Below are positions 6,939-44,038 of a stretch of 64,000 bases of DNA, piece after piece; the first letter of the stretch is position 1, and each line of letters opens with the position of its first letter. The notes beneath the pieces are model-generated. The model searched no databases, was not told the origin of the DNA, and saw only the letters and a list, made by a program, of their open reading frames with translations. The translations under genes were made by a program, and so were the position numbers. The DNA lies in the NCBI GenBank assembly GCA_027596195.1, contig JADGJG010000042.1, positions 1 through 64,000 of the forward strand. Reading direction: 5' to 3'. The DNA comes from Podochytrium sp. JEL0797 (taxonomy: Eukaryota; Chytridiomycota; Chytridiomycetes; Chytridiales; Chytriomycetaceae).

Positions 6939-8752
6939 ATGGACTCTTTGACTGAGGAGCAGTTGTTGAAACTCGGTGATTTCCAGGTAACTATTCTACG
7001 TGTTTCCTGTAGTATTTATTAACACATCCAATAGAACATCACTGGCATCGAAAGCGTCGAAACAGCACTGGAAGTGCTTTCGTTGCACCACTTTGACCTC
7101 GAGGTTCTTGTCTTGTTTCTCTCTTCGGTTCTCTTAATAACACTTCCTCTAGCGATCCGTACAGAGCATCTTTAATGGATCCTCGCACGATGCCTCCACA
7201 GTAACTGGCGAATCCAGCACCGGTTTGCGCCGCCGAATCCCGCCACAATCACCCACCCAACCAACCCCCACTGCTTCTTCACCCTCGGGAACACTGCGAG
7301 GAACCGGTCCCAGACCAAAAACCCCAATGGTACGTTACTTATTCATATCCATCCAAACTAATCACCATCACCCAATGCAGTCCTTCTGGCACCGCCTCTT
7401 CTACCCACTCACACTCTCCCTCCGCATCGCACACGTCCTCCTCCAATTCTCAAGTAACCACCCCCACCCCCTTCCCTCCTTAATAACTAACACCCGCACT
7501 TCCCCACAGCAACAATCTTCCCGCTCTCCCTCCTCTTCCCCACCCACCCCCGCCTCACACCCACCCCACCACAATCCCAATCCGCCCGGTTCCTTCTCGA
7601 CTTTGAACGCCTCCACGGCCCAACGCACCCGTCCTTCTTTCAAGGAACGTATTCGCAGGCACTTGAAGTCGCGAAACGTGAACTCCGCTGCCTCCTCGTA
7701 TACCTACACTCTCCAGAGCATGACGATACGGATGCGTTTTGTCGAGACGTATTAGGGAACGCGGATTTGTTGCAGTTTTTGCGGGAAAAGCGGTTCGTTG
7801 TGTGGGCAGGGGACGTCAAGGAATCCGAAGCCTTCGTGGGTAAATCACCCCCCTCCCTTTCCAAACACCTGCCCTGATTGTGAACCCGATCGAAATCGAC
7901 CCGATCCTCAACCCCCCACAAAAAACTGGCGTAATCACATTCTAAAAGCACACAACCACAGTCTCCAACACCCTCCTCACAACACGATTCCCCTTCCTCG
8001 CCCTCATCGCCCCCCAATCCTCCTCCCGCATGGTCGTAGTAGACCGCTTCGAAGGCCCCCTCACACCCGCTGTCCTCATCTCATCCCTCACGATCCAACT
8101 CGACCGCGTGAACACCGTCTTAACAAACGTCCGCTTAGATCGGTAAGACACAACCTCCGATTGCAGAAAGCAGGGGGTTATTGACTTTGAGGGGAAACCA
8201 GGGAACGACTCGACCAATCCCGAACCCTCCGCGACGCCCAAGACGACGCGTACAACGCCTCCCTCCGGGCCGACCAAGAAAAGGCCCGTCTCGCACTTGA
8301 AGCAACACAACGCGCTCAGCAAGAGAAGGAAGAATGCGACCGTCGAGAGCGCGAGATTGCTGAAAAGCGAGAATCGAAACGGTTGCGCAAGATTTTCTTG
8401 ACGGAGCATTTGGAGGCAGAACCAGAGTTGACGGGTGTCGGAGAGGTTGCCAAGATTGGAATCCGTCTCCCATCCGGAGAACGCGTGACGCGGCGTTTCC
8501 TCGCCACCGCTTCGATTCAGGTAACAAAAAACTCGCATTGGACCTCCCCCCATACTCATCCAAAATTCCACAACCCAGGACATATACGACTTTATCGAAA
8601 CACTCAACCTGACCCCGATCGAACTGGACTCTGATTTCGAAGTCATCAACACGTACCCGAGACGCGTTCTCACCAATAAATCCGAAACCGTCAAGGAAGC
8701 GGGTTTGTTTCCAAACGCGTCTGTTATGGTCGAAGAAATGGACAAGGAGTGA
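6939..8752 (+). CDS. UBXD8/FAF2-like UBA-UAS-UBX protein
   Basis: Eight exons (6939-6986, 7035-7103, 7153-7329, 7381-7453, 7510-7839, 7962-8142, 8202-8520, 8579-8752) give 456 residues. The N-terminus is a UBA domain (LLKLGDFQNITGIESVE...). A hydrophobic hairpin follows (SFWHRLFYPLTLSLRIAHVL), then a thioredoxin-like UAS domain, a charged coiled coil rich in RE/QE, and a C-terminal UBX domain (FIETLNLTPIELDSDF, INTYPRRVL). This is the architecture of FAF2/UBXD8 and yeast Ubx2, which recruit Cdc48/p97 to the endoplasmic reticulum and lipid droplets for protein degradation. The last exon is repeated in tandem downstream in decayed form. Confidence 0.93.
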
Positions 8753-8934
8753 AACTATTCAAACCAATAAAAAAGGTGGTTTATTTTGATGTTATGGCGA
8801 AAGTCGAAAACGCGACGATGAACAGAATCTCGAGATGCATTTCCAATACCCGTAGAACGCGTTCAGAGAGACATTTTTTTTCACTGATCGGCGTTCGCGG
8901 GATTCAAATTTCAAACGCGGGAACTTACCTTCCG

Positions 8935-9136
8935 AATATTTGTCCACAACAACTTGTTCCACTTTATCAAACTCTTGAAACAACACCCAATCGAACTGGA
9001 CTCCGACTTTGAGGTCATCAACACGTACCCGAGACGCATGCTCTCCAACAAGTTAGAAACTGTCAAGGGGGCGGGTTTGTTTCCAAACGCGTCGGTTATG
9101 GTTAAAAAAGGAATAAAAAAAGACAAACCAATGTAA
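8935..9136 (+). pseudogene. Tandem copy 2 of the UBXD8 terminal exon
   Basis: From about 8960 the DNA again encodes PIELDSDFEVINTYPRR and AGLFPNASVMV, nearly identical to the UBX end of the gene upstream. The shared ATCGAACTGGACTC anchor is at 8618 in the gene and 8990 here, so the unit is about 370 bp. The frame stays open to a stop at 9134-9136, but I see no convincing acceptor site immediately upstream. Read as a relic; use as an alternative last exon cannot be excluded. Confidence 0.7.
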
Positions 9137-9259
9137 ACACGGTTCGATTTTTCGATGTATATGCCGAAATTCGAAAACGCGTCCTTCAAAATCTCAAGAT
9201 GCATATCCGATGCCGTAGAACGCTATTGGGCAAATCCACACACTGGAACTTTACCTTCC

Positions 9260-9574
9260 CCTCTTGTACGAGTTTATCGAAAGTCGAAACCCTCAAACCA
9301 GTCCCTAATCGAACTAGACTCCAATTTCGGGGTCATCAACACGTACCCGAGACGCGTGCTCTCCAACAAGTCGAAAAGCGTCAATGAAGCGGGTTTGTTT
9401 CCGACCGCGTCGGTTGAAGGAGTGAACCTATCCAAACCAATTAACACTCTCATTATTCATGGTGAAACTACTCTTTACAAGATTGGGAATATTTCCAAAA
9501 GGCGTCGACCGCGGTCCACCAATGCAAATGCAATAAAATCAATTGTAAAAAAAAGCGATCTATTTGAATATTAA
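9260..9574 (+). pseudogene. Tandem copy 3 of the UBXD8 terminal exon
   Basis: A third copy encodes LIELDSNFGVINTYPRR followed by NEAGLFPTASV, with more substitutions than copy 2. Its anchor lies at 9308, 318 bp after copy 2. The frame then runs on into unrelated basic sequence to 9574. The flanking segment (about 9140-9240) also matches DNA downstream of the real gene, showing that the repeated unit includes 3' flanking DNA. Most likely decayed. Confidence 0.65.
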
Positions 9575-9585
9575 AAAACACAACG

Positions 9586-12500
9586 TCATTCTGAATCTCG
9601 AGACGTTTCCGACCGCCCAATTCTTCCCGGAGAAACACCGCCAGATGCATCAGGAGACCTCACTTTTGCAATCTTTGGCCTCGGACTAGGAGCCCTCCTC
9701 GCCCCCACAGGCGGATGCGGACTCGGAGATGTCGGACTGTGAACTGGTGGATCTGTCGCAACGAACAGTTCCGGTATCGGCTCAACCGTGATATGAGTGA
9801 CATGAACACGATCGACCTCTTCATTCTTGAGCGTGTCAATCACGGGACAATCAACCCCCTCCGAATCCCCTCCTCGTTTCGAACCATCCATCTCAAGAGA
9901 CTTGGAATCACTCGGCTCGGTATACTTAAAACTTGGCGCGAAGGAATACCTCGTCACAACAATTTCGGGAGTAATTTCCGTTTTCGGGACAGAAGATGAG
10001 CGACGCGGTGCTGCAAGTGGCGCAGCCACACCCCCTCCTTCAAACGCTGTAGACGCGGGCCGCATCGGCGAGGAAAGGAAAGCCGCAATACCCGAATGCG
10101 TGACAGAAAAGGACCTCTTAGAGGAGGAGGACCTGCCATTTGCCTGCTTCGGGGTGAAAGTAACTATCGATGTCCGTTCCTTCAATAGCCCTTGCTCCAC
10201 GCCATCCAGCGCATGACTTGACTTTACACGTTCCACTTCCATAACGTTGCTAAGCGTATGAATACTTTGCTTCATATCGAATCCAGTAAAATCGAAGCCA
10301 GTCATGGGCCGCGATTTGGCTTGCAATCTCCTGCCTCCAGATGTCGCAACAGACAGTCCTGCTTCCGACGCCCTGCTGATATGAACGTCCGGGAGTACTC
10401 CATACCCAGAAAGAATGTTGCACACTTTGAATTTCAACAGTTCGGTGAATATCCGAATGTTCTTCTTGGACCGTGCAAAGAGAATCGGGATCATTGGATC
10501 TACCATAATCATTTAGCTTCCATTTCAACAGTGAATGACTATTACCTTCAGCCCGAATCCCAGCCCGCACAGCCTCCAACTCATCCCGATCCAGCAACCC
10601 AATCCCCGCCGCCTTGGTCATAAACTCCTCCAACTTTTTCCACTGAACCTCTGTAAACACCAAATTCAACGTCACACCAGCATGCGCAAGGGAATGACTT
10701 GAATGGACGGCACCATCACCATCACTCCCAGACGGAATATATCTCCCAGGAATCAGTTTCTGAGTCCGAGAGAGCGAGCTGCTTCTGGGAACCGGAACAC
10801 GTGCTTGATCGTGTGTGAGGTGTTCAACGTGAAGATCTTTGGCGTTCTCTTCAGAGATTTGGAACAGTTCGGCATGGGAAGACATTTCGATTTCGTCTCT
10901 AGAAAAGTGTACATGAAGTCAGTTTTTGAAAAGTAGCAAAAACATGTAAACGTACCCAAATGCCGCAAAAAACTTTTTCAACGCTTCCTCTTGCATCCTC
11001 ATCTCTTTATCCGAAACTCCCTTCTGGAACTGCGCCATCGCATAATTATGCGCCAGAAAACAAACCACAAGCGAACACCCAAGAATCACCGGCGACAACC
11101 ACGCACTAATCGCGCTCCTCCGATAATACGCCGCCTTCGGAACCCCAAGTTCAAACCCAAACAACACGCCACAAACAACCCCACAATAAGCATACATGAA
11201 CCCCCGAATGCGATCAAACCACGCAACATGATTCGGCCTCCCAAACAACGAACAAGCCGACAAACACGCCATCATCACAAACGCACATGGCAGAAAATAC
11301 GCATTCGGGGTATTAAAATACAGAATGATCACCACCGTTTTGGAAATAGACTCCAAATAGATATTCCAATCCTTATCCTTGAAACTAAACTCTTTCCGAA
11401 TCAACTTCAAAATCTTGCAATACCGCACAACGCAGTTGGTAAACGCGCATCCGAGCCCAATACTCAACACGACCATGACCCAATGCCCGCCTTGCCAGCA
11501 AACAACTTGGTAACTGTTTTGATAGACAAAAGTTTGCGGGGAGAGTCGGCAATCAAACACCCTCGCCAATAGTTCCACACTCGGATTGAACGCAATCAAT
11601 GCAAAATTGGGCATGAAATCGGCCAACAAGGCGTGAAATTTCATCAACGATGGAAGAACATCCGGGTAATAAAACTCAATCATTCCATACAAGTAAGTAG
11701 TGTGAAACATCCCCACAAGCCAGAGAAACACAAGAACAGAGACGAGAACGTAATACCAAAACCAATCAAAGATCAACCCGATATACGAAACGACATCAAC
11801 ATAAATGTTGTGCTGTATCACTGAAGACCGGTTCATACAAAGGTATACAATCTGGAAGCAAGTGAAACACTGCGTGACGATGCCGAGCCAGTTTTGGAGT
11901 GTCCACTTGATTTTCTCTTTGGACAGCAGCGCACTTTTACGTTGATGTCTGATGTCATTCTCTGGATCAATTCTGCACATGTTGAGAACAAACGGAATCG
12001 CAGTCGACGCAATCAGGAGAATGTAAAACGCGAGATAGGAAGCCATTCCAATCGTTGTGTACGGGAACGAATTTAGGTTACTCCAGAATGGAATCGCGGA
12101 ATCCCATTCATAATTCGCTGTTGTACGTGTCATTAAATTATGAAGGGGGGGAAGAGAAGGGGGTCACGAACCTGTCTCATAAAACGCATTCTTTTCCGCA
12201 TCTGAATCAATCTCCAACCTGACGCTCACATTGTTGCAAGTCACAGCCACCAACGCATTCAAATTCCTATTCACCAAGGCACTCCCAACTCCACTCCACC
12301 CACTCGCCGTCAAACTTTGCGCAACTCCCGAATCCGTCAAGGTGAACTGCAACCACTCAACGAGATACTTGACCGCTAAGCAATCCACAACAGAACCACC
12401 TCCGTATTGAAAATAGTTTTGTCGCATCACCACAAATGACGCAAACGTAAGAGGATACGCCCCCGTCACATTCACATCCGTAAAAGACAGAAAATCATGC

Positions 12501-13519
12501 AGCACAGCACTAGAATTAAGTCCTTCCGAAACCGCTCCAACTGCAACCATAATTGCACTCAACACCGGAGAAACCAGTTCCCCTTTGACGTTCACAAGAT
12601 TCGCCACTGTCGGACTCCTCCCACTCGAAAACGCTTGAATCACAGCCTCACACCCAGTATATGTAATCGAATTGAACGTGATCCCTGAAATATACATGTT
12701 CTCAAGAACAGTACTCCCTCTGAGGAACCAACTCGGCCAGGGGTACAATTTTCCAGGAACAGATCCCGCAAACAACGCGCTATACCTCGCCAAATAAGCC
12801 GGGAAGGTATCCGACGCGTCGCTCGACACAATCACTGTAATCAATTCCTTCGGAAACACGATTCCAGGATTCCTCGATTGAAGCCGAGTGTCGTTCCACC
12901 ACGCAATCTGCCCAGAGAAAATCCCAGCCAACGCGCCGGCATCGAAATTCAAAACCTCACCCCCAATCCCCAACCCAGGCAGATTATACACAACCGCCAG
13001 CGCACCAACGGTCACAGGCAACATAATTGCCCCAGAATGTCGCGGCGACATGGGATTCACGTATCCACTTTGAAACTCAACAGAAGTGACCTCCACTTCA
13101 CTTCCAGCAAACATCACTCCACCGCTAAACAAATCCGCAACACCCTCTCCACTATTTGAAGATTCATACCCCAAATCGACTTGAAACCCCGGCGGAGCCT
13201 GAACTTCCGCTTCAAACAACTTGATCGAATTCCAAAACGTCGTGGAAATCACATTCGACCCGGATCCATTCACCATCACATGTTGAACCACAGTTTGAGC
13301 TTGCAAGTGCGTTTGAACAGACTCATCTACCATCTTATACAAGAGACCAGCCGCGATACAAAGAATCAAAATGGGAGTCAGCGCGGTGATGACTATCTGC
13401 GCGCGAACAGCGAAAGGCATTTCGGTCGGGGTATGGACGCGTTTTTGATAAAGCGCAGTTTGCAACGCTGATTTTGCTATGTCGGATGTAGACGGTGGAG
13501 CACAAGAGGGGACCGACAT
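9586..13519 (-). CDS. PstS-like phosphate-binding domain fused to a polytopic membrane protein (receptor-like)
   Basis: Four exons (13519-12172, 12117-10956, 10898-10546, 10499-9586) encode about 1258 residues. Residues 40-62 form a first membrane helix. A domain of about 350 residues follows that matches bacterial PstS phosphate-binding proteins: NGSGSNVISTTFWNSIK, ESSNSGEGV with FAGSEVEV, a VVYNLPGLG strand, ALAGIFSGQIAWWND, and a SSDASDT ligand loop. Exon 2 then supplies about seven or eight hydrophobic helices. A cytoplasmic-looking tail of about 420 residues, rich in serine and proline, ends the protein. A plausible topology puts the binding domain outside and the tail inside, so the protein may sense phosphate or a related anion. 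It starts a minus-strand block that continues with rhodopsin-like receptors. Function is inference; the fold call is firm. Confidence 0.85.
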
Positions 13520-13682: not shown

Positions 13683-14809
13683 TCATTGAAAACAAAACCT
13701 CAACACTCCCTGTTTCACCCTCTTCACCGCAACAAAATACGCGTCCCGAAACTCGTTTTGAAACAACAGCACAATTAAAGCTGTCCAAAACGGATCCATT
13801 GCAGGAATAACTGTGGTGGCAAATTGAAGATTTTGGTTGTTTTGCACTTGAATCTCGGCATTGGAGTTGAAGATGCACACAAACATGACAATAATGTTGG
13901 GGCAGTAGAAGAGCACGAGGCCGATTCCCATGAGCATACATCGCGTTAGAGCCGATCTGCGTTTTTCCATATCCTTAAATTATCGAAAAATCTGACAAGG
14001 AATGCCTTACCTTTGAAGTCGCGTACTTATCTCCATTGACGACTTGACTGAAACCCCTGAAGGAAGCTCAACTGTAAACTTCCTCGAAAAATCCCTCGCA
14101 ATCACTGCGAAAGAATTCCAATACAACAATGCCACAGTGACGGCAACGAGAGGAAAGTAGGAAAGTCCGAGAACAAATAGCACGGTCTGTATCCTGCTCA
14201 TGTAGCATGCCTTTGTGGGGTATTCAATCGTACAGGGGACCGCGAAGGGTAAATACAACCAGCTGACACCGTCACGCTAATTTTTGGGAAGAGCATATTA
14301 AATCAAACCTCTTGCAAGGAAAAGAACCATACCGACACAGAAAACGAAGCAATGAAGAAGCCAGTGAAGACAAATGCTGATGAAAATATCAAACCAACGC
14401 CTAATCTGCTCAGTGGCTGGCTCCACCGAATCAGCGAGAATCGATCCATCGCCAGCAACAAGTTGGCCGCAAATACCATTGTCAAGACAAGATATGTGAT
14501 TGAAGCCAGCGTATCTCCCACATTCGGAATGTAAATACTAGTAACGGCTCCTGACTCAGATCCGAGCTCGGCACTCTCCACCCACAGCTCGTTCAACGCC
14601 ACAATCAACGAACCACTAACAATCGATGACCCGCAAAGGACAAGTACAGCGCTTCCAATGTGTGATTGCGACCGCCGGACGAGCTTGTCGTAATTCGAAA
14701 TGGTCACGGCCAAGAGACTCAGATTCAACAGGATTCCGAGGACTGAGATTGCAGAGGCCAAGTGGGAGCCAATGTAAAGCAGGTTGTAGGACGTGGTATT
14801 CGTACTCAT
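13683..14809 (-). CDS. Rhodopsin-like seven-helix receptor, copy 1
   Basis: Three exons (14809-14333, 14276-14011, 13956-13683) give 338 residues. Seven hydrophobic helices are visible. Helix 1 carries GILLNLSLLAV. The end of helix 3 has AMDRFSLIRWS, in the place of the class A D/E-R-Y motif. The second outer loop has a cysteine in AVPCT. Helix 7 and helix 8 read MDPFWTALIVLLFQNEFR, the counterpart of NPxxY and the following short helix. The start was chosen because MSTNTTSYNLL aligns with the start of all other copies and holds an N-glycosylation site. Ligand and G protein partner are unknown. Confidence 0.85.
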
Positions 14810-15132
14810 CCGTCTGCTTACTTCTCCCAAATGAATGAATAAAACAAAAGCCACATTTGCAATGACATAAGCCACTTGCAGACACGCACGTATATAATAA
14901 GGCCCAAGAAACAACCGTACCACCAACGCCGCTCCACAGGTCCATAGCAGTCACCTACACTTGTAAACGAACCCGAATTTGATTGTTTGACCCCTATACC
15001 GAGTTCTTTCAAAAAGGTGCGGCAATCATTTTAAGCTTAGAGGCATTTTCTGGTTTAAATGTGTCATGGCCCATGGACAGGGTAAAATAATGGTATTTCG
15101 TGTTCTTCCCACTAATTCTAATTAAATGACTT
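14810..15132. other. Spacer between receptor copies 1 and 2
   Basis: This 323-bp stretch is AT-rich and contains no supported gene. It should hold the 3' end of copy 2 and the promoter of copy 1. The copy 1 frame is open upstream to about 14926, but the extension has no counterpart in the better-aligned copies and is not used. Confidence 0.6.
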
Positions 15133-16266
15133 CTATTTTTTCCAAACCATCGAATCGCAAACTTTAAAAACACGCTCCCTTGTCCTCCTCACTCCTTGCA
15201 CATACGCGTCCCGAAACTCGTTTTGAAACAACAGCACAAGTAAAGCTGTCCAAAACGGATCCATAGCAGGAAGCACTGTGGTGGCAAATTGAACGTTTTG
15301 GTTGTTTTGCACTTGAATCTCGGCGTTGGTGTTGAAGATGCACACAAACATCATGATTATGTTGGGGCAGTAGAAGATAACGAGGCCGATTCCCATGAAC
15401 ATGCATCGCGTAAGTACAGATCTGAAATATTATATTTGTCAGTTCCGCCGGAATTTCCGTGTCACATTCTACCTTTGAAGTCGCGCACTTTTCTCCATCA
15501 TCGAATTAGCGGACATCCCCAACGGCTCCACTAAAAACTCCCTCGCAATCATTCTGAAAGAATTCCAATACAACAACGCCACAGCGATGGCAACGATAGG
15601 AAAGTATGAAAGTCCGATAACAAACAACACTTTCTGTATCCCGTCCATGTAACAGGCGCTCGTGGAAAAATCTTGCGTACAAGGGACGGCGAATGGCAAA
15701 TACAACCAGCTGACACTGTCACTCTAATTTTCAGGGAGAACCACGTCAATTCAAACCTTTTGCGAAAAAGCGAGCCATACCGACACAGAAAATGATGCAA
15801 TAAAGAATGCAGTGAAGACAAACGCGGATGCAAAGGTCAAACCAACGCCCAATCTGCTCAGGGACTTGCTCCATCGAATCAACGAGAATCGATCCATTGC
15901 GAGCAACAAGTTCGCAGCAAATACCAGTGTCAAGACCAGATACGTGACAGAAGCTAGCGTGTCTCCCACATTCGGAATGTAAATACCAGCGACCACTCCG
16001 TTCCCAGATCCGAGCAGGGAACTCTCTACCCACAGCTCGTTCAACGCCACAATCAACGAGCCACTAACAATGGATGAGCCACAAAGAACAAGCACGGCGC
16101 TGCCGATGTGAGATTGCGACCGCCGGACGAGTTTGTCGTAATTCGAAATGGTCACGGCCAAGAGACTCAGATTCAGCAAGATACCGAGGACTGAGATTGC
16201 CGAGGCCAAATGGCAGCCAATGTAAAGTAGATTGTAGGATGTGGCATCCGTCGAGTTGTTGCCCAT
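15133..16266 (-). CDS. Rhodopsin-like seven-helix receptor, copy 2
   Basis: Three exons (16266-15781, 15723-15473, 15421-15133) encode 341 residues with intron positions and phases identical to copy 1 (phase 0 after helix 4, phase 2 before helix 6). The N-terminus has NNST as a glycosylation site. The helix 3 motif is AMDRFSLIRWS and the helix 7 motif MDPFWTALLVLLFQNEFR. Differences from copy 1 concentrate in the outer loops (for example the segment after WVES), which fits diversification of ligand preference, but this is inference from reading, not a measured selection test. Confidence 0.85.
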
Positions 16267-16394
16267 TTGCGTGATTGCAATCGCAAGAGAAGGGAAAAAA
16301 AGCCACCTTTGATGAAACTGAATTTTTGCGGATCAGGCACTCCCGCAAGGCTCAGTAACACACGCATGACGGCCGATGCCGGAACGTTCACCTC

Positions 16395-16560
16395 GTCGTT
16401 TTAAATTCCAATACCGCTTTGAAACACAACAATTTGTATCAGGTCCATCGCAGGTCAGGTTGATTTGTACTTGAATCTCACCTGATTCGAGTTTAAGATG
16501 CAGTCGGGGCGGTAGAAGATGAAAATACCAATTCCTATGAGCTTATATCGCTGAATAGTG
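16395..16560 (-). pseudogene. Decayed receptor exon 3
   Basis: On the minus strand this DNA still aligns with the third exon of the neighbouring receptors: KLIGIGIFIFYRPDCI stands where intact copies have a MGIGLVLFYCPNII segment, followed by a decayed counterpart of NSNAEIQVQ. The plus strand shows the matching TCCATCGCAGG and GGGGCGGTAGAAGATGA blocks. Deletions remove the helix 7 part. It is the remnant of a sixth receptor gene lying between copies 2 and 3. Confidence 0.75.
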
Positions 16561-16619
16561 AGAATGACTTTTCGGATTCTATTCGGAGGAATTTTCTGGT
16601 GCACAGATTCCAATCCCCC

Positions 16620-16742
16620 TCCCCCTTCTCCCTCCCCCTCCATCAAACTCTCCTCATACTCCCCAACACCCTTCTCCAAATTCGCCACCTGCCAACACAG
16701 TGGACACTGAAACATGACACTACTCCCCAACAGCGTCATGAC
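16620..16742 (-). pseudogene. RING-exon fragment copied from the FHA-RING ligase
   Basis: About 120 bp encode LLGSSVMFQCPLCWQVANLE, matching the second half of the RING in the ligase at 2827-4719 almost residue for residue (one change turns CPLCR into CPLCW). Only this piece is present, with no FHA part and no first zinc site, so it cannot act as a RING. It sits directly upstream of the decayed receptor exon, 12 kb from its source. Confidence 0.85.
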
Positions 16743-16790
16743 ACCTCCGCTAGTTGGCCCTCTAAATTTTCTAGTTGACTGCGGTTGATT

Positions 16791-17922
16791 TCAATTACAC
16801 CTCATAGAATGACAAAATCGAAAAGCAAGCTCCTTCACCCTCTTCCATCCTTGCACATACGCGTCTCGAAACTCGTTTTGAAACAGCAGCACACTCAAAG
16901 CTGCCCAAAATGGATCCATCGCAGGAATCACTGTCGTGGCAAACTGAACACTTTGGCTGTTTTGCACTTGAATCTCGGCATTGGAGTTGAAGATGCACAC
17001 AAACATGATAATAATATTGGGGCAGTAGAAGAGAACGAGGCCGATTCCCATGAGCATACATCGCGTGAGTACCGATCTGGAAAATAGTATTTGTCAATTG
17101 TTCTTGTGGTAAATTTTCTACCTCACCTTTGAAGTCGCGTACTTTTCTCCATCATTGACTTTGCAGACACCCCCACAGGTATTTCCACTAAAAACTCCCT
17201 CGCAATCATTCTGAATGAATTCCAATACAACACCGCCACAAAGACAGCAACGATAGGAAAGTAGGAAAGCCCAATAGTGAACAACACAGTCTCTATCCCG
17301 CTCATGTAGCAGGCGCCAGTGACAAAATCTTGCGTGCAAGGGATCGCGAAGGGCAAATTCAACCAGCCGACACCGTCTCGCTAGTTTTTGAGAGGAACCG
17401 TTAAAAATAAACCTTTCGCCAAATAGAGAATCATACCGAAATAGAAAACGAGACAATAAAGAACCCAGTGAATATCATTGCGGATGCAAAGATCAAACCA
17501 ACCCCAAATCTGCTCAGTGTCTTGCTCCACCGAATCAGCGAAAATCGATCCATCGCAAGCAACAAGTTGGCCGCAAACACCAGTGTCAAGACAAGATACA
17601 TAACAGAAGCCAAGGCATCTCCCACAATCGGAATGTAAATAACAGCGACAGCTCCCGTCTGTGATCCGAGCTCGACACTCTCCACCCACAGCTCGTTCAA
17701 TGTCACCATCAATGAGCCACTAACTACGGATGACACACAAAGAACAAGCACGGCGCTGCCGATGTGAGATTGCGACCGCCGGACGAGTTTGTCATAATTC
17801 AAGATGGTCACAGCCAAGAGACTAAGATTCAGCAAGATTCCGAGCACCGAGATGGCCGAGGCCAAGTGGGAGCCAATGTAAAGCAGATTGTAGGATGCGG
17901 CATCTGTCGAGTTACTGCTCAT
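16791..17922 (-). CDS. Rhodopsin-like seven-helix receptor, copy 3
   Basis: Three exons (17922-17437, 17380-17127, 17076-16791) encode 341 residues with the same intron phases as the other copies. The start is MSSNSTDAASYNLL. It keeps AMDRFSLIRWS after helix 3, IPCTQDF in the second outer loop, and MDPFWAALSVLLFQNEFR in helix 7. No defect was found. The gene is flanked upstream by a 281-bp spacer and downstream by the RING fragment. Confidence 0.85.
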
Positions 17923-18204
17923 TTGTGTCTGTCACAGATGAATGAATGAAAAAAGAGCGACATTTATTTTTTGCGCATCTCCGGTGGCATGCACGCGCGC
18001 AAGCGTGTCATTGCCGAGGGCGTTACATTCATTTCTTTAAAACCATCACATCGCTTACGCCTTATAGTTTCCAAACGAGGGTTTACTTCTCCGAAATATT
18101 TTTGTATGGAAAGGTGATATTTAAATCGTCGACTAAATTACAATGGCAAGTCCGTTACCTTATCCACACATTTGCACCCTCTTTCTAATTGAATGCATTT
18201 GATT

Positions 18205-19348
18205 TCAAGTGCACCTCATAGAATTACAAAATCTAAACACACGCTCCTTCACCCTCTTCCATCCTTGCACATACGCGTCTCGAAACTCGTTTTGAAACAT
18301 CAGCACACTCAAAGCTGCCCAAAACGGATCCATCGCAGGAAGCACTAACATCGCAACTTGTACATTTTCGTTGTTTTGCACTTGAAGCTCGGCATTTGAG
18401 TTGAAGATGCACACAAACATGATAATAATGTTCGGGCAGTAGAATATGACGAGGCCCATTCCCATGAGCATGCATCGCGTGAGTGCGTATCTGAAATTTT
18501 TGGGGGCATCAATCTCCGAAACTCTGTCAAATTCTGCCTCACCTTTCAAGTTGCACACCTCTCTCATTCATCTCCTTCATTGACTCGGCGGCCACCCCGA
18601 GAGGTAGTTCCGCCGAAAACTCGCTCGTTATCACAGCGAAACAGTTCCCATACACCACCGCCACAGTGACGGCAACGAGAGGAAAGTAGGAAAGTCCAAA
18701 AACAAATAACACCGTTTGTGCCACGCTTCTATCGCATTCGCCGGTGGCAAAATCGATCGTGCAGGGGACCGCAAAGGGCAAATACAACCAGCTGACACCG
18801 TCTCGCTAATTTCCGGGAGAACCACGTCAATTCAAGCCATTCGTCAAAATAAAGAACAATACCGATACAGAGAACGAGGCAATGAAGAACCCAGTGAATA
18901 TCATCGCGGTTGCAAAGATCGAACCAACACCCAATCTGCTCAGTGGCTTGCTCCACCGAATCAGCGAGAACCGATCCATCGCAAGCAGCAAGTTCGCAGC
19001 AAACACCAACGTCAAGACAAAATACGTGACAGAAGCCAGTGAATCTCCCACAATCGGCTCGTAAATAACAGCCATGGCGCCAGTCTCGGATCCGAGCTCG
19101 GCACTCTCCACCCACAGCTCGTTCAACGCCACAATCAGCGACCCACTAACTATTGATGACCCACAAAGGACGAGTACAGCGCTTCCGATGTGAGATTGTG
19201 ACCGCCGGACGAGCTTGCCATAATTCGAGATTGTCACCGCCAGTAGACTGAGATTCAGCAAGATGCCGAGAACTGCTATTGCAGAAGCAACGTGGCTGGC
19301 AGTTATAATCATGCTGTAGGAAGTAGCATCCGTCGAGTTGTTGCTCAT
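18205..19348 (-). CDS. Rhodopsin-like seven-helix receptor, copy 4
   Basis: Three exons (19348-18863, 18805-18543, 18490-18205) encode 344 residues. It is the most divergent of the intact copies: the first helix begins TSYSMIITASHVAS, the second loop has a GECDRSVAQ stretch, and the segment before helix 6 is three residues longer (ERGVQLER). The core motifs AMDRFSLIRWS and MDPFWAALSVLMFQNEFR are kept. Upstream in-frame sequence is open to 19450 but does not align with the other copies, so the start at 19348 is preferred. Confidence 0.85.
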
Positions 19349-19567
19349 CCTTCTTAGATTATGTAATGAATAAATTAATTTGCGCATTCCGCTGGCGACG
19401 CGCACGCTGGCGTACGCAAGGCTCAGTTTGACATGTGCCGGCACATCCACTTGTCAGTTTTTAAATTCCAATACGCTGTGGTCCAACGCCGCTCCACAAG
19501 TGTGTAAATTGGAATATTTGTATTGGAAGTCAGCGTCACACATTTTCTAGTTGGATATCTTCTATTT

Positions 19568-20704
19568 TTAAAGCACCATTGACCTACAAAATTTAAACAC
19601 CCACAGCTTCACCCCCTTCCATCCTTGCACATACACGTCCCGAAACTCGCTCTGAAACAACAACACAATCAAAGCCGCCCAAAACGGATCCATCGCAGGA
19701 ATCACTGTTGTCGCAAATTGAAGATTTTGGTTGTTTTGCACTTGAATCTCGGCATTGGAGTTGAAGATGCACACAAACATGATAATAATGTTGGGACAGT
19801 AGAAGAGGACGAGGCCGATTCCCATGAACATGCATCGCGAGAGTACCGACCTGAAAATTTTGGGGGAGCACCTCAATTTTCGAAAGTCGGATAAATTTCT
19901 GCCTCACCTTTGCAGCTGGGTACTTTTCGGCATCATCGACTTTGCGGAAACACCCAAAGGAAGTTCCACCAAAAACTCCTTTGCAATTATTCGGAATGAA
20001 TTCCAATACAACAACGCGACAATTGGAAAGTAGGAAAGTAGGAAAGCCCGATAACAAAAAATACAGTCTGTATCCTGCTCATATAGCATGACTTTGTAGC
20101 ATGATTGACTGTACAGGGAACCGCGAAGGGCAAATACAACCAGCTGACACCGTCTCGCTAATTTTCAGGAGGACTACATTGAATCAAACCCTTTCACAAA
20201 GAAACAAAGATGCCATACCGCAACAGAAAACGAGGAAATAAAGAACCCAGTGAAGATCATTGCGGTTGCAAAGATCAAACCAACACCCAATCTATTCAAT
20301 GGCTTGCTCCACCGAATGAGCGAGAATCGATCCACCGCAAGCAACAAGTTCGCTGAAAACACCAGCGTCAAGACCAGATATGTGACAGAAGCCATCGAAT
20401 CGCCCACATTCGGAATATAAATCACAGCCACTGTTCCTGTCTGGGATCCTTGCTCGGCACTCTCCACCCAGAGCTCGTTCAGCGCCACAATCAACAAACC
20501 GCTGATAATAGACGAGCCACAAAGAACAAGTACAGCGCTTCCGATGTGAGATTGCGACCGCCCGACGAGCTTGTCAAAATTCGAGATGGTCACTGCCAAG
20601 AGACTGAGATTCAGCAAGATGCCGAGCACTGATATTGCAGAGGCCACGTGGCAGCCAATGAATAGGAAGTTGTATGATGTAGCGTCCGTCGAGTTGTTGC
20701 TCAT
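19568..20704 (-). pseudogene. Rhodopsin-like receptor, copy 5, frameshifted in helix 5
   Basis: The three exons lie at 20704-20219, 20157-19908 and 19850-19568, with all splice sites conserved, but their total length (1019 bases) is not a multiple of three. The break is in helix 5: the plus strand has GGAAAGTA twice in a row (around 20034-20048) where copy 3 has it once, and about 12 bases next to it are missing. After GLSYFP the reading frame goes out of phase and stops some 15 codons later. Exons 1 and 3 look otherwise healthy, so the loss is recent. A truncated product ending near helix 5 remains possible. Confidence 0.8.
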
Positions 20705-21046
20705 TCGAGTGAATAGTTTAGTGCGTCGGAGATGAATGAATGAGAATATCTAGAAAAATCTGAGAAGTTTCAGAAAAGGAGGAAGTTTCAGAGCAAGTAC
20801 GATTAGAGAGAAAATCCTTCAAGCACGCAAGACCCCGGTCGCTAAATTTCAGAAATCCCAATGTAGATTTCTCTAGAGAGGGAAAACTCAAATCAATTGC
20901 TTTTCCTTTCCTGACCGAAATCAGGTCCAATTTGTGAGAGTGTTCTCAAACGAGCACTTCGGGAATACCAGGTAAAGACCCAACCATATTACGGATTGTC
21001 CGAATTGCATGCGAGGACCTGAAAATATTTTATGTATTTTCTAAAC
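20705..21046. other. Spacer upstream of the receptor array
   Basis: No gene seen in this 342-bp stretch. It must contain the promoter of copy 5 and the 3' region of the first GT90 gene. Several short AGAAATTTC-like stretches are present but no clear element can be named. Confidence 0.5.
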
Positions 21047-22841
21047 TCAACAAGTCTGTTTCGTCCCATCGAAACACATGTTATACAAATCACGATACTC
21101 CAACAATAACAACGCAGAATAACACTGCACCTGCGATATCCTCCCCATCTGCCGCATCAACTCCCTCGCATTGACACTAATCTGCCTCGCCTTCTCATCA
21201 TTCTTGACCAACCACTCCATCCTCTCTTCCAAATCACTATAATCCAACGCAAACGGCACATAATGCACCCAAGGCACCAAATTCACCAAATACCAATCCA
21301 CAAACAACCCATTCCAAAGCACAACACTGTTACTCTCCAAATACAACTGAATCCTCCCACTCCAAGAATTCCCATCCACAACCACCAAATACTTGAACTT
21401 CATCGAAGTCTCCCAATTCACAGACTCCCGCACAGGATACATCCTCTCCAACACCTTCCTCGTCTCATCATCCGTTTGTGGGTACGCATTCAACCCAACA
21501 TCCACAACCACCACCCCTTCCTCTTTCACAACATCCGGAACATCCCCCTTCCCCGCGTCAAACACTCTCCCCGGATTCTGCCTCGCAAACCCCTTCTCCC
21601 AATCCAAAAGCAAAGTACGATGATACATGCTCCACGCATTTCCCGACCGATAACTCCCCCCCGTCGTGCTCCCCCTCCAAAACAACACATTCGCTTTATC
21701 CTCCCATGCAACGTTATCCTTCTTGGTATCCATCGAAATCCCCTGATGATAATGCAACGGCATCAACACGTCAACATAACAATCAATCTTGGCCCCAGAA
21801 ATGACAGGAGCGTCGTAATTCCGTGCATGGAAGGTATCCGGTCTCAAAAAGAATCCATGCACTTCCCTCGCCGTATTCAACCCGCCGGGGAGCAACTTCG
21901 TATCATACGTTTTGCGGAAACACTCGTTGTGATGGAAAATGTCGTTCATGGCGTGGTACTTCAGATTCGTGGGCGGCTGCACTAGGGTCGTTTGGGAAGA
22001 TCCGTTGACGCGGTGATAAATGCGGTTTGCGGGTCCAATATCGGCAGGAATGAGACGGGGCTCGTCGCTCGTGTTGATGACATAAGAGAACTCTTTTCCA
22101 CCCTAAAAATAATTGAGTTAGTACCTTTCGCGTCAGCCGCGAGTGCCAAAAGCAACCTCTCGCAAAAACATACCTCAAACAAAGGCGCAATCACTTCCAA
22201 CACCTCCTTCTTCGAAAACCAATCCGGTCCACCCACAAACTTACCATCCTCGTACGTGAATGGTCTATCTTCCCGAAACGGCTCCAACGTGCGTGGCTCA
22301 ATTCCGCCGCGATCCCTCCACCGCTTCAGATCCTTTTCGAAAATCTGCGAATAAAGCGACATGTTGCCGTTGGCGAAGCATCCGTTCTGGGTTGCAAATG
22401 CGTGCCATTTGACGAAGCCGGGAGGTGGCGGGCGAGAGAACTGTCAAAACAACCAAAGTCAATACGCACTCAAACAGGCGAATGCATCAGCCTTACCTTT
22501 TGCTCAAACTCTTTGGTCGCCTCTTGAAGGGGTGACAACGGAACCACCGGATCCACAATCTTCACCTCCTCCTCAACAACCTCCAATTCCGCAACAGTCC
22601 CATCTTCCTCCGCCTCCTCCTCAGACTCATAGTGGTGTCCAACCGGAGGCACGATAAGATCGATTCTCGAACTATTGCTGTTCTCGCTGGAAGCCAATCG
22701 GGCTGCATCAGGTGTGGCAGTGCTGGTATCAGGGATAGCTTCGACCACGGACGCTGTCGACAAGAGTTCGATGGCACTGCGCGCAATCACAAGCAGGAGG
22801 ATGCACATGACCACAATGTGGATCTTGCGTGGGCGTTGCAT
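21047..22841 (-). CDS. GT90 (CAP10-like) glycosyltransferase, copy 1
   Basis: Three exons (22841-22497, 22440-22174, 22102-21047) encode 555 residues. A single membrane helix near residues 7-25 followed by an acidic stem makes it a type II Golgi-type protein. The catalytic part matches the GT90/CAP10 family: FHHNECFRKTYD, KANVLFWRGSTTGGSY, KYLVVVDGNSWSGRIQLYL and LVPWVHYVPFALDYSDLEE. GT90 enzymes transfer xylose or glucose to proteins or polysaccharides in known fungi and animals; the acceptor here is unknown. ATG at 22841 is chosen; an upstream in-frame ATG at 22883 would add 14 residues. A near-identical paralogue follows in the same orientation. Confidence 0.9.
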
Positions 22842-23235: not shown

Positions 23236-24936
23236 TCAACAAGAATACGTTATCCCATCAAGACACATATCATACAACTCCCGATACTCCATCAACAACA
23301 ACGCAGAATAACACTGCACCTGCGATATCCTCCCCATCTGCCGCATCAACTCCCTCGCATTCACACTAATCTGCCTCGCTTTCTCATCATTCTCAACCAA
23401 CCACTGCATCTTTTCCTCCAAATCACTATAATCCAACGCGAACGGAACGTAATGCACCCAAGGCACCAAATTGACCAGAAACCAATCGACAAACAACCCG
23501 TTCCACAACACAACACTATTCGTCTCCAAATACAACTGAATCCTTCCACTCCACGAATTCCCATCCACAACCACCAAATACTTGAACTTCATCGAATCCT
23601 CCCACCCCACCCCCTCCTTCACAGGATGCAGCCTCTCCAACACCTGTCTCGTCTCCTCATCTGTCTGCACGTACATATTCAACCCCACATCCACAATCAC
23701 AACACCTTCCTCTTTCTCTACGTCCGGAACGTCTTCCTTCCCACCATCAAACACCCGCTCTGGAAACCTCCTCGCGAAATCCTGTTCCCAGTCCAACAAC
23801 AAAGTCCGATGATACATGCTCCACGCATTGCCCGACCGATAACTTCCCCCCGTCGTACTCCCCCTCCAAAACAACACATTCGCTTTCTCCTCCCATGAAA
23901 CCGGATCCTTCTTGGTATCCATCGAAATCCCCTGATGATAATGCAACGGCATCAACACGTCAACATAACAATCAATCTTGGCCCCAGAAATGACAGGAGC
24001 GTCGTAATTCCGCGCATGAAACGTATCCGGCTTCAAAAAGAATCCATGCACTTCCCTCGCGGTGTTCAACCCGCCAGGAAGCAACTTCGTGTCATACGTC
24101 TTCCGAAAACACTCGTTGTGATGGAAAATGTCGTTCATGGCTGTATACTGCAGTTCCGAAGGAGGGTGTGTAAGTTTCGATTGGGAGGATCCAGTTGCAC
24201 GCTGGTAAACGTGATTCGCGGTCCCCACATCGGCAGGAACGAGACGGGGCTCGTCACTCGTGTTGATGACGTACATAAACTCTTTTCCACCCTTTAAAAC
24301 AATAACTAGTTGAGAATAAATGCGTTGGCGGAGGGGGGCTAAAGGAAAAAAATACCTCAAACAAAGGCGCAATCACATCCAACACCTCCCTCTTCGAAAA
24401 CCACTCCGGCCCACCCAAAAAAGTCACATTCCGATACGAAAACGGTGACTCCTTAATAAACGGTTCCAACGTTCTCACATCAATCCCCCCACGATCCCTC
24501 CACCGCTTAAGATCTTTTTCAAAAATCTGCGAATACAGCGACATGTTGCCATTGGCAAAACATCCATTCTCGCTCGCAAACGCATGCCACTTGTCGAATC
24601 CCAGTGGTGGTGGACGAGAAAACTGAATGAACGAATTTCAGGTCAAACGAATACGCGAAAGTATGGAGCTGACAAACTCACCTTTCCCTCAAACTCTCGG
24701 ACAGCATCTTGAAGTGATGTGAGCGGTCCCACCATCTCGACTGCTTCCATTTCCTCACCCCCTTTCTCAACCTGAACGACCAACGACCGCATCTTGCTGC
24801 TGTTCGCGCGGCGTAGTTTGGTTCGAGGCTCGTCCGAGTCCGACCCAAGAACCGACAAGCTCTGCCGAATCACAAGCATGACAACACAGAGGAGAAGCAA
24901 GTATCCCAGTTTAACCTGTTTGATACGGAACGTCAT
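23236..24936 (-). CDS. GT90 (CAP10-like) glycosyltransferase, copy 2
   Basis: Three exons (24936-24682, 24622-24356, 24291-23236) encode 525 residues. Exons 2 and 3 have exactly the same lengths as in copy 1 (267 and 1056 bases) and very similar sequence, including the motifs KANVLFWRGSTTGGSY and DGNSWSGRIQLYL. The N-terminal membrane anchor and stem (exon 1) are different and shorter, so the two enzymes may differ in localisation or partners while keeping the same activity. Clear tandem duplication. Confidence 0.9.
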
Positions 24937-27372: not shown

Positions 27373-27656
27373 GAAATTTCAGGGTTAGAATCCGAAACTA
27401 CCTCGTGCTTCTCCAGTACCCGCGTCAGCAAGAAACTAGTTATCGCAAAAAGCGGGTCTCGTTTGAAACCGTTGCAAGTTTGCATCTTGAGTGGTTCGAA
27501 ATCAGGCATATCCGATAATTCCTCACCATACAGAAATTCATAGAAGAGAGAGGTTAGATAAATAATTTCTGCATCAGAGTCGGACTCAAAAGGCTTTTTG
27601 TTTCAATCAAAAAACGCCGCTTGAATCCACCAAACCGACGCCCGCTTTCCAATACC

Positions 27657-28415
27657 ATGAATATCCTCACCCTCTGCCATGCACTTCCGGATCGCGATCC
27701 CAGCCCCTCTCTCACGGCCACACTCCCCACCGAGATCCTCATCCAAATCTTCACCCTCCTCCGAACCTCGAACCACGCCGCCCTCATGAACTGGCCTCAG
27801 GCGATGCCTTGCACACGGGCGCTACGCACAAACCTCTCACTGATGCACCTGGACCGCACGTCGCGCACCATCTTGTCCTCCAACACCTCGTTCTGGCTTG
27901 GATGCGACCAGGTCTGGACGTCCATCTCCCTCCTCTTTCTCGCCGATTCCCTTCCCCCAGATTGTTTTACAGATGTCCATTCCCTCTATCTGGAATGGCG
28001 TCAACTCCACAGCCAAAAATCCGCCTTCGCAACCCTCCTCGCAAAGTGCCTACACCTCAGACACGTTTACATTGAACGCTGCTTCCTACCCTCCCTCGAA
28101 AGCCTGCTGGACGCTTTCCAATCCTACGACCCGCTTCACTTCCCCACATTGGAATCCATCAACACCACCAAACACTCCAGCGTCCCAGATCCAATTACCC
28201 TGCTAGAATGCTTGATGAATGTGGCTCCTGATCCCGCAATCTCCTACTCTTCCAATCGCTCCATCAAGTTCGTCCTGCAGGATCGTCCCAACGTCAGAAC
28301 AATCGTGTTTGAATTCCCCATCCCATCCACAACCTGTTTCAACTGCAGCATGATTCAGAACCACAAGCTTACGAACGTTGTGATTTGCGACGGATGTGGC
28401 AAAGTCCGAATGTAG
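27657..28415 (+). CDS. F-box protein, locus 1 (C-terminally shortened)
   Basis: Single exon of 252 residues. An F-box is visible at residues 17-30 (TLPTEILIQIFTLL), followed by MHLDRTSRTILSSNTSFW, a segment shared by all members of this local family. F-box proteins link substrates to SCF ubiquitin ligases. Full-length relatives (347 residues, at 34909 and 44039) end with a zinc-ribbon region containing two CGK motifs. Here the protein goes directly from CDGCGK to VRM and stops, as if the DNA between the two CGK-coding segments had been deleted. The ATG at 27657 aligns with the family start. Confidence 0.8.
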   Translation: MNILTLCHALPDRDPSPSLTATLPTEILIQIFTLLRTSNHAALMNWPQAMPCTRALRTNLSLMHLDRTSRTILSSNTSFWLGCDQVWTSISLLFLADSLPPDCFTDVHSLYLEWRQLHSQKSAFATLLAKCLHLRHVYIERCFLPSLESLLDAFQSYDPLHFPTLESINTTKHSSVPDPITLLECLMNVAPDPAISYSSNRSIKFVLQDRPNVRTIVFEFPIPSTTCFNCSMIQNHKLTNVVICDGCGKVRM

Positions 28416-31507: not shown

Positions 31508-32819
31508 TCATTGCGAAACGCGAAACTTGTGCTTCCCTACACCCTCCACACCCGCACTCACACCCTCCAAAGTAACTTCATTCGCCACAAACACACCCCC
31601 CAAAGTCGAACCAGTGAGTTTCGCCAACGCGCGCTCATACCGCGGTTTCACTGCGATCGCAGCATACACGAGTCCCAGCAACACGGGCACCTCAATCAAC
31701 GGGCCAATGACAGCCGCAAACGCTTCTTTTGAGTCGATTCCGTACGTGGCCACAGCGACCGCGAGAGCGAGTTCGAAATTGTTGCCTGCAGCTGTAAAAG
31801 ACTGCGTGACGGCCAGAGAATGCGAACTACGCAGCATATACAGCGACGCGACAAACGTGGCAGAAAACACGATGGCAAAGTAAAGAAGAAGAGGCACAGC
31901 TGTGCGCAGGGCTTCAGGGATATTGTTGACAATCTGGTCGCCTTGCAGCACAAACATGACGAGAATCGTGTAGAGGAGTCCGAGGAGCGCGAAAGGGCCG
32001 ATGGTGGGAAGGAATTTGGTATCATACCATTGTTTTCCGAGGGATTTGGAGAAGAGGAAGCGGAGGACCAGGCGTGTGAGCATTCCGAGGGCGAGCGGGA
32101 TTCCAAGGAATACGAGTACCGAACGGACCACGAGCCACATGCTGATCATTTCCGTGTTGGAGGATGCGTCACCGCCAATCACGACGGTGAGGAAGTAAGC
32201 GACGGGTCCGTAGAGGCACAGTTGGACCAACGCGTTCAACGCGACGAGGATCGCGCACCATTCAGCGTCACCGCAGGCGAGTTGGTTCCAGATCAAGACC
32301 ATGGCAATGCAACGTGCTGTGCCAATGAGGATGATTCCGGTTCGTTGGTGGGGAAGGTCGGGGAGGGTGATCCAAGCGAGGGCGGTCATGAAGAGGGGGG
32401 CAATCACGACATTGATGGCGAGGGAGAAGAGAACGATGCGAAGGGCGGATTTCTCTTTGAGAAGGTGGTGGAGTTTTTCGTACTTGACTTTGCTGTTGGA
32501 ATTGAGTTGGTCAAAAATAGAACGTGTTGCGGGGGAATTCACAAACCAGAGCACGGGATACATCATGATGAGAAGACCAATAAAGATTGGAAGAGAGACT
32601 CCGACAATGGATCCCGAATTGAGGGCCGGTTTCGCAGAGGGTACATATCGGCCAATCAGCGTTCCAGCGACCATGGCTGTGGGAGTGAGATTTCAAACGT
32701 TAGGGATGTATGCAAGATTCGAACGGAGCCAAGAAAGTACCGATTAGAATATTGAGGGGAAGAAGGCGATCCAGCCATGACAGTTTGGCAACCACTGCGG
32801 AAGCTTCGACAGTGCTCAT
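31508..32819 (-). CDS. ACR3: Arsenite efflux permease ACR3
   Basis: Two exons (32819-32741, 32676-31508) encode 415 residues with about ten membrane helices. The family stretches LPIFIGLLIMMYPVLW, GIILIGTARCIAMVLIWN (with the conserved cysteine) and SFTAAGNNFELALAVAVATYG are intact. ACR3 pumps arsenite out across the plasma membrane or into the vacuole. Its start is 146 bp from the divergently transcribed ArsC gene, so both likely share a control region, and ArsH lies just beyond. The exon 1/2 join adds a single GCC codon (alanine) before MVAGTLIG. Confidence 0.93.
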
Positions 32820-33457: not shown

Positions 33458-34355
33458 TCACATAACAGACAGAATGTCCACTTTCAGCTCCTCCTTCTCA
33501 TCCCCCTTCTCTCTCGCTTCCTCCCTCTCACTGAACCGGTCCAGCAACATCGCCTTGTTGCCTCTCAACAACAAACTAAACTTAAAAAACTCCTCTGCCA
33601 CATCCACCACGCGTTCACGGAATGAGCTCTTGCGAATCCTCCCCACTGGCAACCCCAGCTCATCCTCGACCCCGGGCAACATGTCAAACTCAGTCCACGC
33701 CTTTGGAATCGAACTCTGATTCGGAAGGGTGACCATACGCATCCATCGCCCGAGAATGCGTAACGCGCTCACGGTGTTGAAGGACTGTGAGCCTCCGTTT
33801 ACTTGGGAAACGGCGAGTGTGCGTCCTTGCGTTGGACGCACGGCGCCGATCGAGAGTGGGATCCAGTCGATTTGGTTCTTGAATACCGCGGTGAGGGTAC
33901 TGTGTTGTTCAGGGGAGACCCAGATATGGCCTTGGCTCCATTCCGAGAGAGCTCGGAGTTCGACAACCTGGGTTGATTACGACTAATGAAAAGGTAACCC
34001 GGAAAAGGAAATCAAGGAATGATAGCGAGAAAGCGCATACCTTTTCATGGTTCTCCGACACCTCGTCCTTGATGGGAAGTCCACGGGGATCAAACACTCT
34101 CACATCGCACCCCAAATGATCCAGAATACGCGCGTACTCATACGCCAACAGACGCGAATACGACGTCGCGCGCAGGGATCCGTAGAGCACGAGGACACGA
34201 AGGCTCGAGGGGTCTACTTGGCTGCTCGAATACCACAGCTGCTTGGCGCCGTCGAGCTCAAGGGTTGGCACCCAGTCGCCGTGGGTGGCGATGACAGCCT
34301 CTGGGAGACGGTAGGGTTTCCAATGGGGGGCGGATTGGGTAATGGCAGATAGCAT
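33458..34355 (-). CDS. arsH: ArsH-type NADPH-FMN oxidoreductase, copy 1
   Basis: Two exons (34355-34041, 33967-33458) encode 274 residues. The flavodoxin-like fold is shown by [20 protein letters not shown] (FMN phosphate loop) and by [20 protein letters not shown], plus [17 protein letters not shown] near the C-terminal half. ArsH proteins oxidise trivalent organoarsenicals and reduce flavin-linked substrates in known bacteria and fungi. Start chosen at 34355 by alignment with the second copy at 58278. It ends 10 bp from the ArsC stop, convergent with it. Confidence 0.93.
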
Positions 34356-34908
34356 TTTGGATAATGTATTTTGTCTCACTCATTAAAGCTGCTTTTATTG
34401 ACAATTCGTGAGAAAAGGTTCATTTTTTGCGCCGAAAGCAGAAAATCAAAAATTCAAATCATTGTGGAAATTCAAATCAAATGACGAGCAGAAGATATCA
34501 GAATATTCCTGATTATTCGGTTGTTTCCTCAAGAAACATAATCAACGAGACCCGGGGTGAATCGAATCAAACCGACTGGTGCGCAGCAAAATATCGGTCA
34601 CACCAAGTCCTTAAAACACACAGTTATTGTTGGCTTGTGCTTCAGGGATGTCCACGCCAACATCAAAATCCTATGCCTTGGTTCCCAGAATCTCGCATTT
34701 CTCCCTCCTCCTTTGTAAATGTCCAACCATGCACTCCAATACAGTCAGCGCTCGGGCGGCTGGTTCCAACGCGTTTCTTCCTGGCATTTGACAAATTCAT
34801 TTTTGTGGGATGGCCGGGCCCTGCCTCCAACCCTCTTTTGCTTTGCTGCGGGAGTGCCACTCTGAAAGCCACAGAGAAATTAAGAACTCACAGAATTTAG
34901 CGTACGCA
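34356..34908. other. Gene-free stretch
   Basis: This 553-bp region lies between the divergent ArsH and F-box starts and should hold both promoters. Open frames within it show no family resemblance. Confidence 0.5.
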
Positions 34909-43472: not shown

Positions 43473-44038
43473 GTTTCCAGCTTGGTGACTGGTGGACTTG
43501 AGAGATACTTTTTTGAACTCGGGCTTGCCGTTTGCCCTCGTTTGCCCAGTCGCGGTTCCAGGCGTGCTGGGTTCCCAAGTTCAACTTCCACGACGGGACC
43601 GTACATTCTCTTTATCGAAAGAGTAATAAATAAAGTAAAAAAAGTAGTTGAACAGAACTGAAGTGGTTTTTAAAAAAAGGGTGGGGGAGACGCGGTTTTT
43701 CGATTGAAACAATAGAATTCTGCAGCGACAGAAAGAAATCGTGCACCAACCTCTTCCAGTGAGTACATCCACGACACCGTTGTCACTGCTTCTTGATATT
43801 TGGAGACAATGCAGGTCGAGATAGGAGAGCGAAACCCTCATGATCAATGAAGAAGACGATGGCGCCTTCGGCACAGGGAGCTTAGAAGTGGAAGAGCCGG
43901 TTCGACAAGTTGGATTTACGGGCTAGACTGATGAAGAGAGGATCGCGCACGTGCTTCCACAAATTGGTCTGCCCGGCGAGTATAAATCGAATCCCAAATT
44001 CCCTGGGCGCCCAAATATTTTCGCCGCATCTCGACCCA
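43473..44038. other. Gene-free stretch between the GH19 and F-box locus 3 starts
   Basis: A 566-bp divergent intergenic region. The part near the chitinase is similar to the region upstream of the GH18 gene near 31284-31380 (TGGACTTGAGAGAT and CCCAGTCGCGGTTCCAG), so the duplicated segment includes the promoter. Confidence 0.65.

Follow-up and report, generated by a model that had tools for sequence, protein, structure and literature searches.

Bacteria import phosphate with an ABC transporter whose substrate-binding protein, PstS, works with an ABC permease and an ATPase. In Podochytrium sp. JEL0797, a domain of this type forms the outer part of a membrane protein encoded in the window, by which we mean the whole stretch of DNA analysed here (the first 64,000 nucleotides of contig JADGJG010000042.1; host assembly, 24.4 Mb). 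The domain resembles PstS over nearly its full length, and solved PstS structures were the top PDB matches of the family profile (best E 6e-30). Unlike PstS, the fungal domain is membrane-tethered, fused to a helix bundle and provided with two invariant cysteines, and the window copy is without the phosphate site. Moreover, no ABC permease was found in the genome (PF00528, zero matches with 14/14 controls positive, in an assembly that is possibly incomplete).

Membrane receptors with outer binding-protein domains are already known in early-diverging fungi. The class C GPCR SPPG_06488 of the chytrid Spizellomyces punctatus carries a PBP_like_2 domain, according to the available text of its description (PMC3251606). 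Compared by that description only, it is likewise a chytrid membrane protein with PF12849 on its N-terminal side, whereas the membrane part of the window family is not 7tm_3 by profile and a signal anchor stands in front. Furthermore, the accessible section of a second paper describes some 100 class C GPCRs from anaerobic gut fungi, almost half of them with a type II binding domain that resembles sugar binders (PMC5168858); the combination of such a domain with membrane helices in early-diverging fungi is shared, whereas the receptors in that section are sugar-binder-like with a class C core and the present family joins PstS to an unclassified core. Ionotropic glutamate receptors also combine a membrane core with an external type II clamshell, although their domain is split in the chain, as stated in the same section (PMC5168858), whereas that of the window family is continuous and accompanied by no Ion_trans or Lig_chan match. 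Class C homologues as a whole are described as enriched in Blastocladiomycota and Chytridiomycota in the part of a further report available (PMC12842992).

The initial annotation had proposed the locus as an undescribed system. Among the best-ranked matches listed, no description of a PstS-fused chytrid family was found in the open-licence literature, nor, among the literature listed, of a PstS-like domain on an unclassified core with a split into site-keeping and site-losing clades. Close precedents, namely class C GPCRs that carry binding domains of bacterial kind, appear in the available portions of two papers (PMC3251606; PMC5168858), and we do not claim a new principle. Chemical sensing by chytrid zoospores is poorly understood, in the words of the excerpt at hand (PMC12115818), and the family offers concrete sensing candidates whose binding domain is of known kinship. 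It also provides a natural experiment, with two clades that share the same core with and without the ancestral phosphate-site arginine, and a clear example of how a binding protein of prokaryotic type came to be incorporated in a eukaryotic membrane protein.

Gene structure and family distribution

A signal-anchor helix, a PstS-type domain and a multi-helix membrane part had been read as one in-frame gene of four exons, and this architecture was borne out: exon coordinates, the GT-AG ends of the three introns and the joined frame all agreed (Table 1), anchor and binding domain were both present, and the fusion is encoded in a single gene kept across six genera. Splicing across 12171-12118 is supported because the proteins of relatives cross that junction unbroken, and their uninterrupted alignment there speaks for one gene rather than two across 12118-12171. 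The window protein corresponds to database record HDU98_007778 (P0001; 100% identity over 98% of the searched stretch), an NCBI model which looks chimeric at its start, its first ~90 residues deriving from a neighbouring tandem gene at 14303-14950. The start codon of the initial annotation is preferable, since the N-terminus that it gives resembles, by eye, that of the relatives.

Table 1. Features of the PstS-like fusion gene, in positions of the window.
Feature	Position	Strand	Residues or length	Content and basis
Gene, four exons	13519-9586	minus	3777 nt / 1258 aa	joined frame
Exon 1	12172..13519	(-)		N-terminal segment, signal-anchor helix and PstS-like domain; splicing, PF12849 match
Signal-anchor / first membrane helix	13337..13393	(-)	aa 43-61	similar N-terminal hydrophobic stretch in relatives, absent in P0012
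PstS-like binding domain	12230..13282	(-)	aa 80-430	TIGR00975, profile against solved PstS
Degenerate anion loop VSSDASDTF	12803..12829	(-)		PstS counterpart R-x-D-x-S-G-T; alignments
Cys380	12380..12382	(-)		invariant in 12/12 members
Cys428	12236..12238	(-)		invariant in 12/12 members
Intron 1	12118..12171	(-)	54 nt	GT-AG ends; stop if retained
Exon 2	10956..12117	(-)		multi-helix membrane module (nine long helices, model) and first part of LKKFFAAF stretch
Loop with Cys639 and Cys656	11498..11551	(-)		short strands between helices 4 and 5 (model)
Intron 2	10899..10955	(-)	57 nt	GT-AG ends; stop if retained
Exon 3	10546..10898	(-)		last part of LKKFFAAFGDE stretch and beginning of conserved tail region
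Conserved tail region			aa 918-986	exons 3-4
Intron 3	10500..10545	(-)	46 nt	GT-AG ends; frame shift if retained
Exon 4	9586..10499	(-)		remainder of conserved tail region, variable tail, stop codon

Three protein searches gathered a fusion family of 14 database proteins, the window gene's own record included, from Podochytrium, Obelidium, Siphonaria, Entophlyctis, Physocladia and Rhizoclosmatium, all six genera being placed in Chytriomycetaceae. The first search returned ten matches, the window gene itself among them, and both parts of the fusion were present in all ten at E<=0.001 (P0001 included). The membrane part of P0007, used as query in the second, gave twelve matches, two of them new, and a profile of the membrane part plus tail gave five in the third, again with two new. 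The models of P0014 and P0015 (from Rhizoclosmatium globosum and Obelidium) begin only halfway through the membrane module; they are probably truncated and were excluded from the 12-member counts, in which P0012 was retained although its anchor and the greater part of its membrane module are missing. In the alignment, a piece of the membrane part is also missing from the models of P0004, P0005, P0006 and P0008. No relative with a different outer domain was seen within the three protein searches, and queries with P0007, PF12849 and the membrane exon detected no family locus in the own genome besides the window gene.

The outer domain: PstS kinship and phosphate site

The expected kinship of the outer domain with PstS was confirmed by profile matches: at E<=1 the joined protein matched a single Pfam family, PF12849 (PBP_like_2; 43.9 bits, cut-off 27), which was found in 10/12 members, and the NCBIfam PstS model TIGR00975 matched all twelve at E<=0.1. 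P0007, the only member with a score given, reached 136.5 bits over profile positions 1-286 of 315, below the equivalog cut-off of 205. In the first structure model, of low confidence (pLDDT 49.8), PstS matches superposed poorly (TM-score 0.22). Both cysteines of the domain, Cys380 and Cys428, may be linked in a disulfide.

When 93 outer domains (those of the 12 fungal members, E. coli PstS and 80 loci) were placed in a tree, the fungal rows were split off by a branch with a support of 100/100 and a length of ~3.0 changes per column, and no near prokaryotic neighbour was present among the 93. Since similarity was the criterion for inclusion and prokaryotes were the only outsiders, the tree speaks to kinship, and not to donor or date. 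The initial annotation had the domain acquired from bacteria; profiles and tree uphold its kinship with prokaryotic PstS, but no donor emerges from them, and the capture of the domain from a prokaryote is what we infer from that kinship. Within the family, clade A (P0007-P0012) and clade B (the window gene and P0002-P0006) were supported by 99/91 and 98/90, respectively, and both were recovered in the membrane-part tree with 100/100; the two parts have therefore been inherited as a unit.

The PstS phosphate site, which we take to consist of T10, S38, D56, R135, D137 and S139-G140-T141 (list and numbering as in E. coli structure work), was compared in two alignments of the family outer domains, one with E. 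coli PstS and one with 80 stretches retained from 558 confirmed prokaryotic ones. Arg135, Asp56, Ser38 and Gly140 occurred in 80/80 prokaryotic rows, and Asp137, Ser139 and Thr141 in 79/80 each, while position 10 was Thr in 44 and Ser in 36. In clade A, Arg135 was kept by all six members and the Ser-Gly-Ser/Thr loop by four, with P0010 and P0011 deviating at several positions. In clade B, Arg135 was kept by none of the six, being replaced by Ser, Thr or Leu, and the 139-141 loop was deleted in four and altered in two, where its placement differed between the two alignments. The window protein reads N, S, E, S and D at the site, followed by the deleted loop.

The ligand-loop motifs that had been noticed in the window protein thus do not hold, its phosphate-site Arg having become Ser and its Ser-Gly-Thr loop being deleted. 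Consequently, the receptor for phosphate or another oxyanion that had been proposed finds no support for this gene, because both the anion loop and an arginine present in every prokaryotic row are lost. The site data favour a phosphate reading for part of clade A and directly oppose it for the window gene; the four clade A members with the whole site probably still bind phosphate or a similar oxyanion. The replaced residues of clade B differ among its members, with no common new set, and this variety would fit relaxation as well as a new ligand.

At the protein level, and with species sets that differ between the clades, mean pairwise identity in clade B (15 pairs) was 39% for the outer domain and 62% for the membrane part, and in clade A (15 pairs) 52% and 54%, respectively; between A and B it was 35% and 47.5%. 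The membrane core of clade B is thus strongly conserved, whereas the outer domain is drifting or adapting.

The membrane module, the tail and the proposed function

The membrane part had been described as about seven or eight helices. Its multi-helix nature is supported, but the count ranges from seven hydropathy peaks in the window protein at one threshold to ten when hydropathy is averaged over relatives at a lower threshold, with nine long helices in an AlphaFold2 model of the membrane part only (weak to moderate; pLDDT 62.2, pTM 0.61, 15 rows). In its membrane part, the window protein matched no Pfam family above cut-off, and the weak Pfam matches in that part of the 12 members were scattered, one member each (E 0.041 to 0.087). 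Likewise, a sequence search of the PDB with the profile of membrane part plus tail gave three matches, none below E 1.7 and all in the tail section. Comparison of the helix part with GPCR and transporter families recognised no known family by profile, and by this measure the module would belong to no Pfam class and is treated here as unclassified. Cys639 and Cys656, conserved in 11/11 rows with letters there, are predicted to form a disulfide within the core loop.

Downstream of the last helix, the LKKFFAAF stretch is followed by a region of ~70 residues common to most members and then by the variable tail. A tail of 420 residues rich in serine and proline had been described; it is present and comprises 448 residues, but its enrichment is only mild (Ser 12.3% and Pro 7.1%, against 9.1% and 4.3% in the preceding part). 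An odd helix number, together with an outer domain on the outside, would put the tail in the cytosol.

We regard the family members as candidate environmental sensors of clamshell type on an unclassified core, a reading to which we give an even chance. It is the likeliest because no ABC permease was found, the clade B core is better conserved than the binding domain, the tail holds two conserved stretches and fungal precedents exist. The readings overlap, and their likelihoods need not add up to one. In the proposed mechanism, the signal-anchor helix, an extracellular PstS-like clamshell, a membrane module with some nine helices and a tail in the cytosol would make up one polytopic protein of predicted topology. 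A ligand would shut the outer clamshell and so pull on the membrane helices on either side of it, the anchor and helix 1; the signal would then be relayed onward by the conserved core with the LKKFFAAF stretch and tail region. In clade B, as the site is gone and the core is tightly held, the outer domain has probably turned to a different ligand or keeps hold of the core ligand-free, and the window copy probably senses something other than phosphate. More tentatively, the family may represent a novel receptor class, with some nine helices in a core that has no relation to GPCRs, channels or carriers. In this view, the core was fused to a captured prokaryotic PstS in one chytrid family, whose clade A sensors would have kept to phosphate and whose clade B sensors would have been re-purposed, and all of these may be zoospore chemoreceptors.

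The main rival, which we hold to be rather unlikely, is a carrier, or a transceptor, with a tethered clamshell that would bind a solute and pass it on to the membrane module for transport. Its kinship with PstS is that of a transport feeder, and a helix bundle with conserved charged residues would suit a carrier as well as a receptor; however, no transporter profile exceeded its cut-off in the membrane exon of the window gene, where at E<=10 only MgtE appeared (E 0.34, 11.6 bits against 27.6). Moreover, the capture site is lost in clade B while the core is kept, and the two conserved cytosolic stretches would still require a role.

A sensor could also be a divergent GPCR, whose seven-helix core had drifted past profile recognition, and we consider this unlikely, even though the seven hydropathy peaks of the single sequence would suit it. 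Chytrid class C GPCRs with outer binding-protein domains do exist, one of them with PF12849 in the text available (PMC3251606), and the own genome holds 48 matches to 7tm_3 (43 over the cut-off, counted by exon stretch). Yet this same profile, so readily found elsewhere in the genome, matched the membrane part in 0/12 members, comparison of the membrane profile with five class C cores of the own genome gave a probability of 0.2% (hhalign), and the model contains nine long helices.

A further reading, which concerns the outer domain and overlaps the others, would make the window copy a decaying relic or a ligand-free structural subunit. The lost phosphate site and the lower conservation of the clade B outer domain relative to the core agree with it, but the frame is open over 1258 codons and clade B comprises six genes from five genera with the core identity given above, and we judge it quite unlikely. 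No clade A partner was found in the own genome, in an assembly that is possibly incomplete, and the window gene can therefore not be explained just as the silent member of an A-B pair.

Least probable of all is a ligand-gated channel with a type II binding domain and a pore, as in ionotropic glutamate receptors: such domains do serve ligand-gated channels, according to the accessible text of PMC5168858, and RR_TM4-6, a ryanodine-receptor membrane profile, was weakly matched by one of the 12 members (E 0.082), but no Ion_trans, Lig_chan or TRP profile was among the five Pfam families matched by the 12 members at E<=0.1, and the binding domain is continuous with no pore inserted.

Genomic neighbourhood

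On the minus strand, five similar tandem genes at 13683-20749 are predicted to be multi-helix, carry a DRF motif after helix 3 and look, by eye, like rhodopsin receptors. The fusion gene had been placed at the head of this block, and the block had been taken to strengthen a sensory reading; the gene actually sits at its low-coordinate, downstream end, and the block is without profile support, no Pfam match having been obtained for any of the five copies by exon or for one hand-joined copy. Just downstream of the fusion gene, one short coding-like stretch (TDAFGNKPASLTVSDLL...RLGYVLMTSKSESSSIG) recurs at 7942-9574 in several degenerate copies, as judged by eye.

Elsewhere in the window, two neighbouring ORFs of glycosyltransferase family 90 (PF05686) lie at 21048-22102 and 23237-24372 (-). 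A transporter of the sodium-bile-acid-symporter family (PF01758) at 31509-32692 (-) is located near an FMN reductase gene (PF03358) at 33459-34379 (-), with a similar reductase at 58242-59169 (+); transporter and reductase presumably resemble the Acr3/ArsH arsenic pair. Finally, five similar ORFs with CxxC pairs were distinguished by eye at 27558-28415, 34792-35952, 43886-45082 (+), 59257-60120 (-) and 63120-63866 (+), four of which begin, also by eye, in an F-box-like manner.
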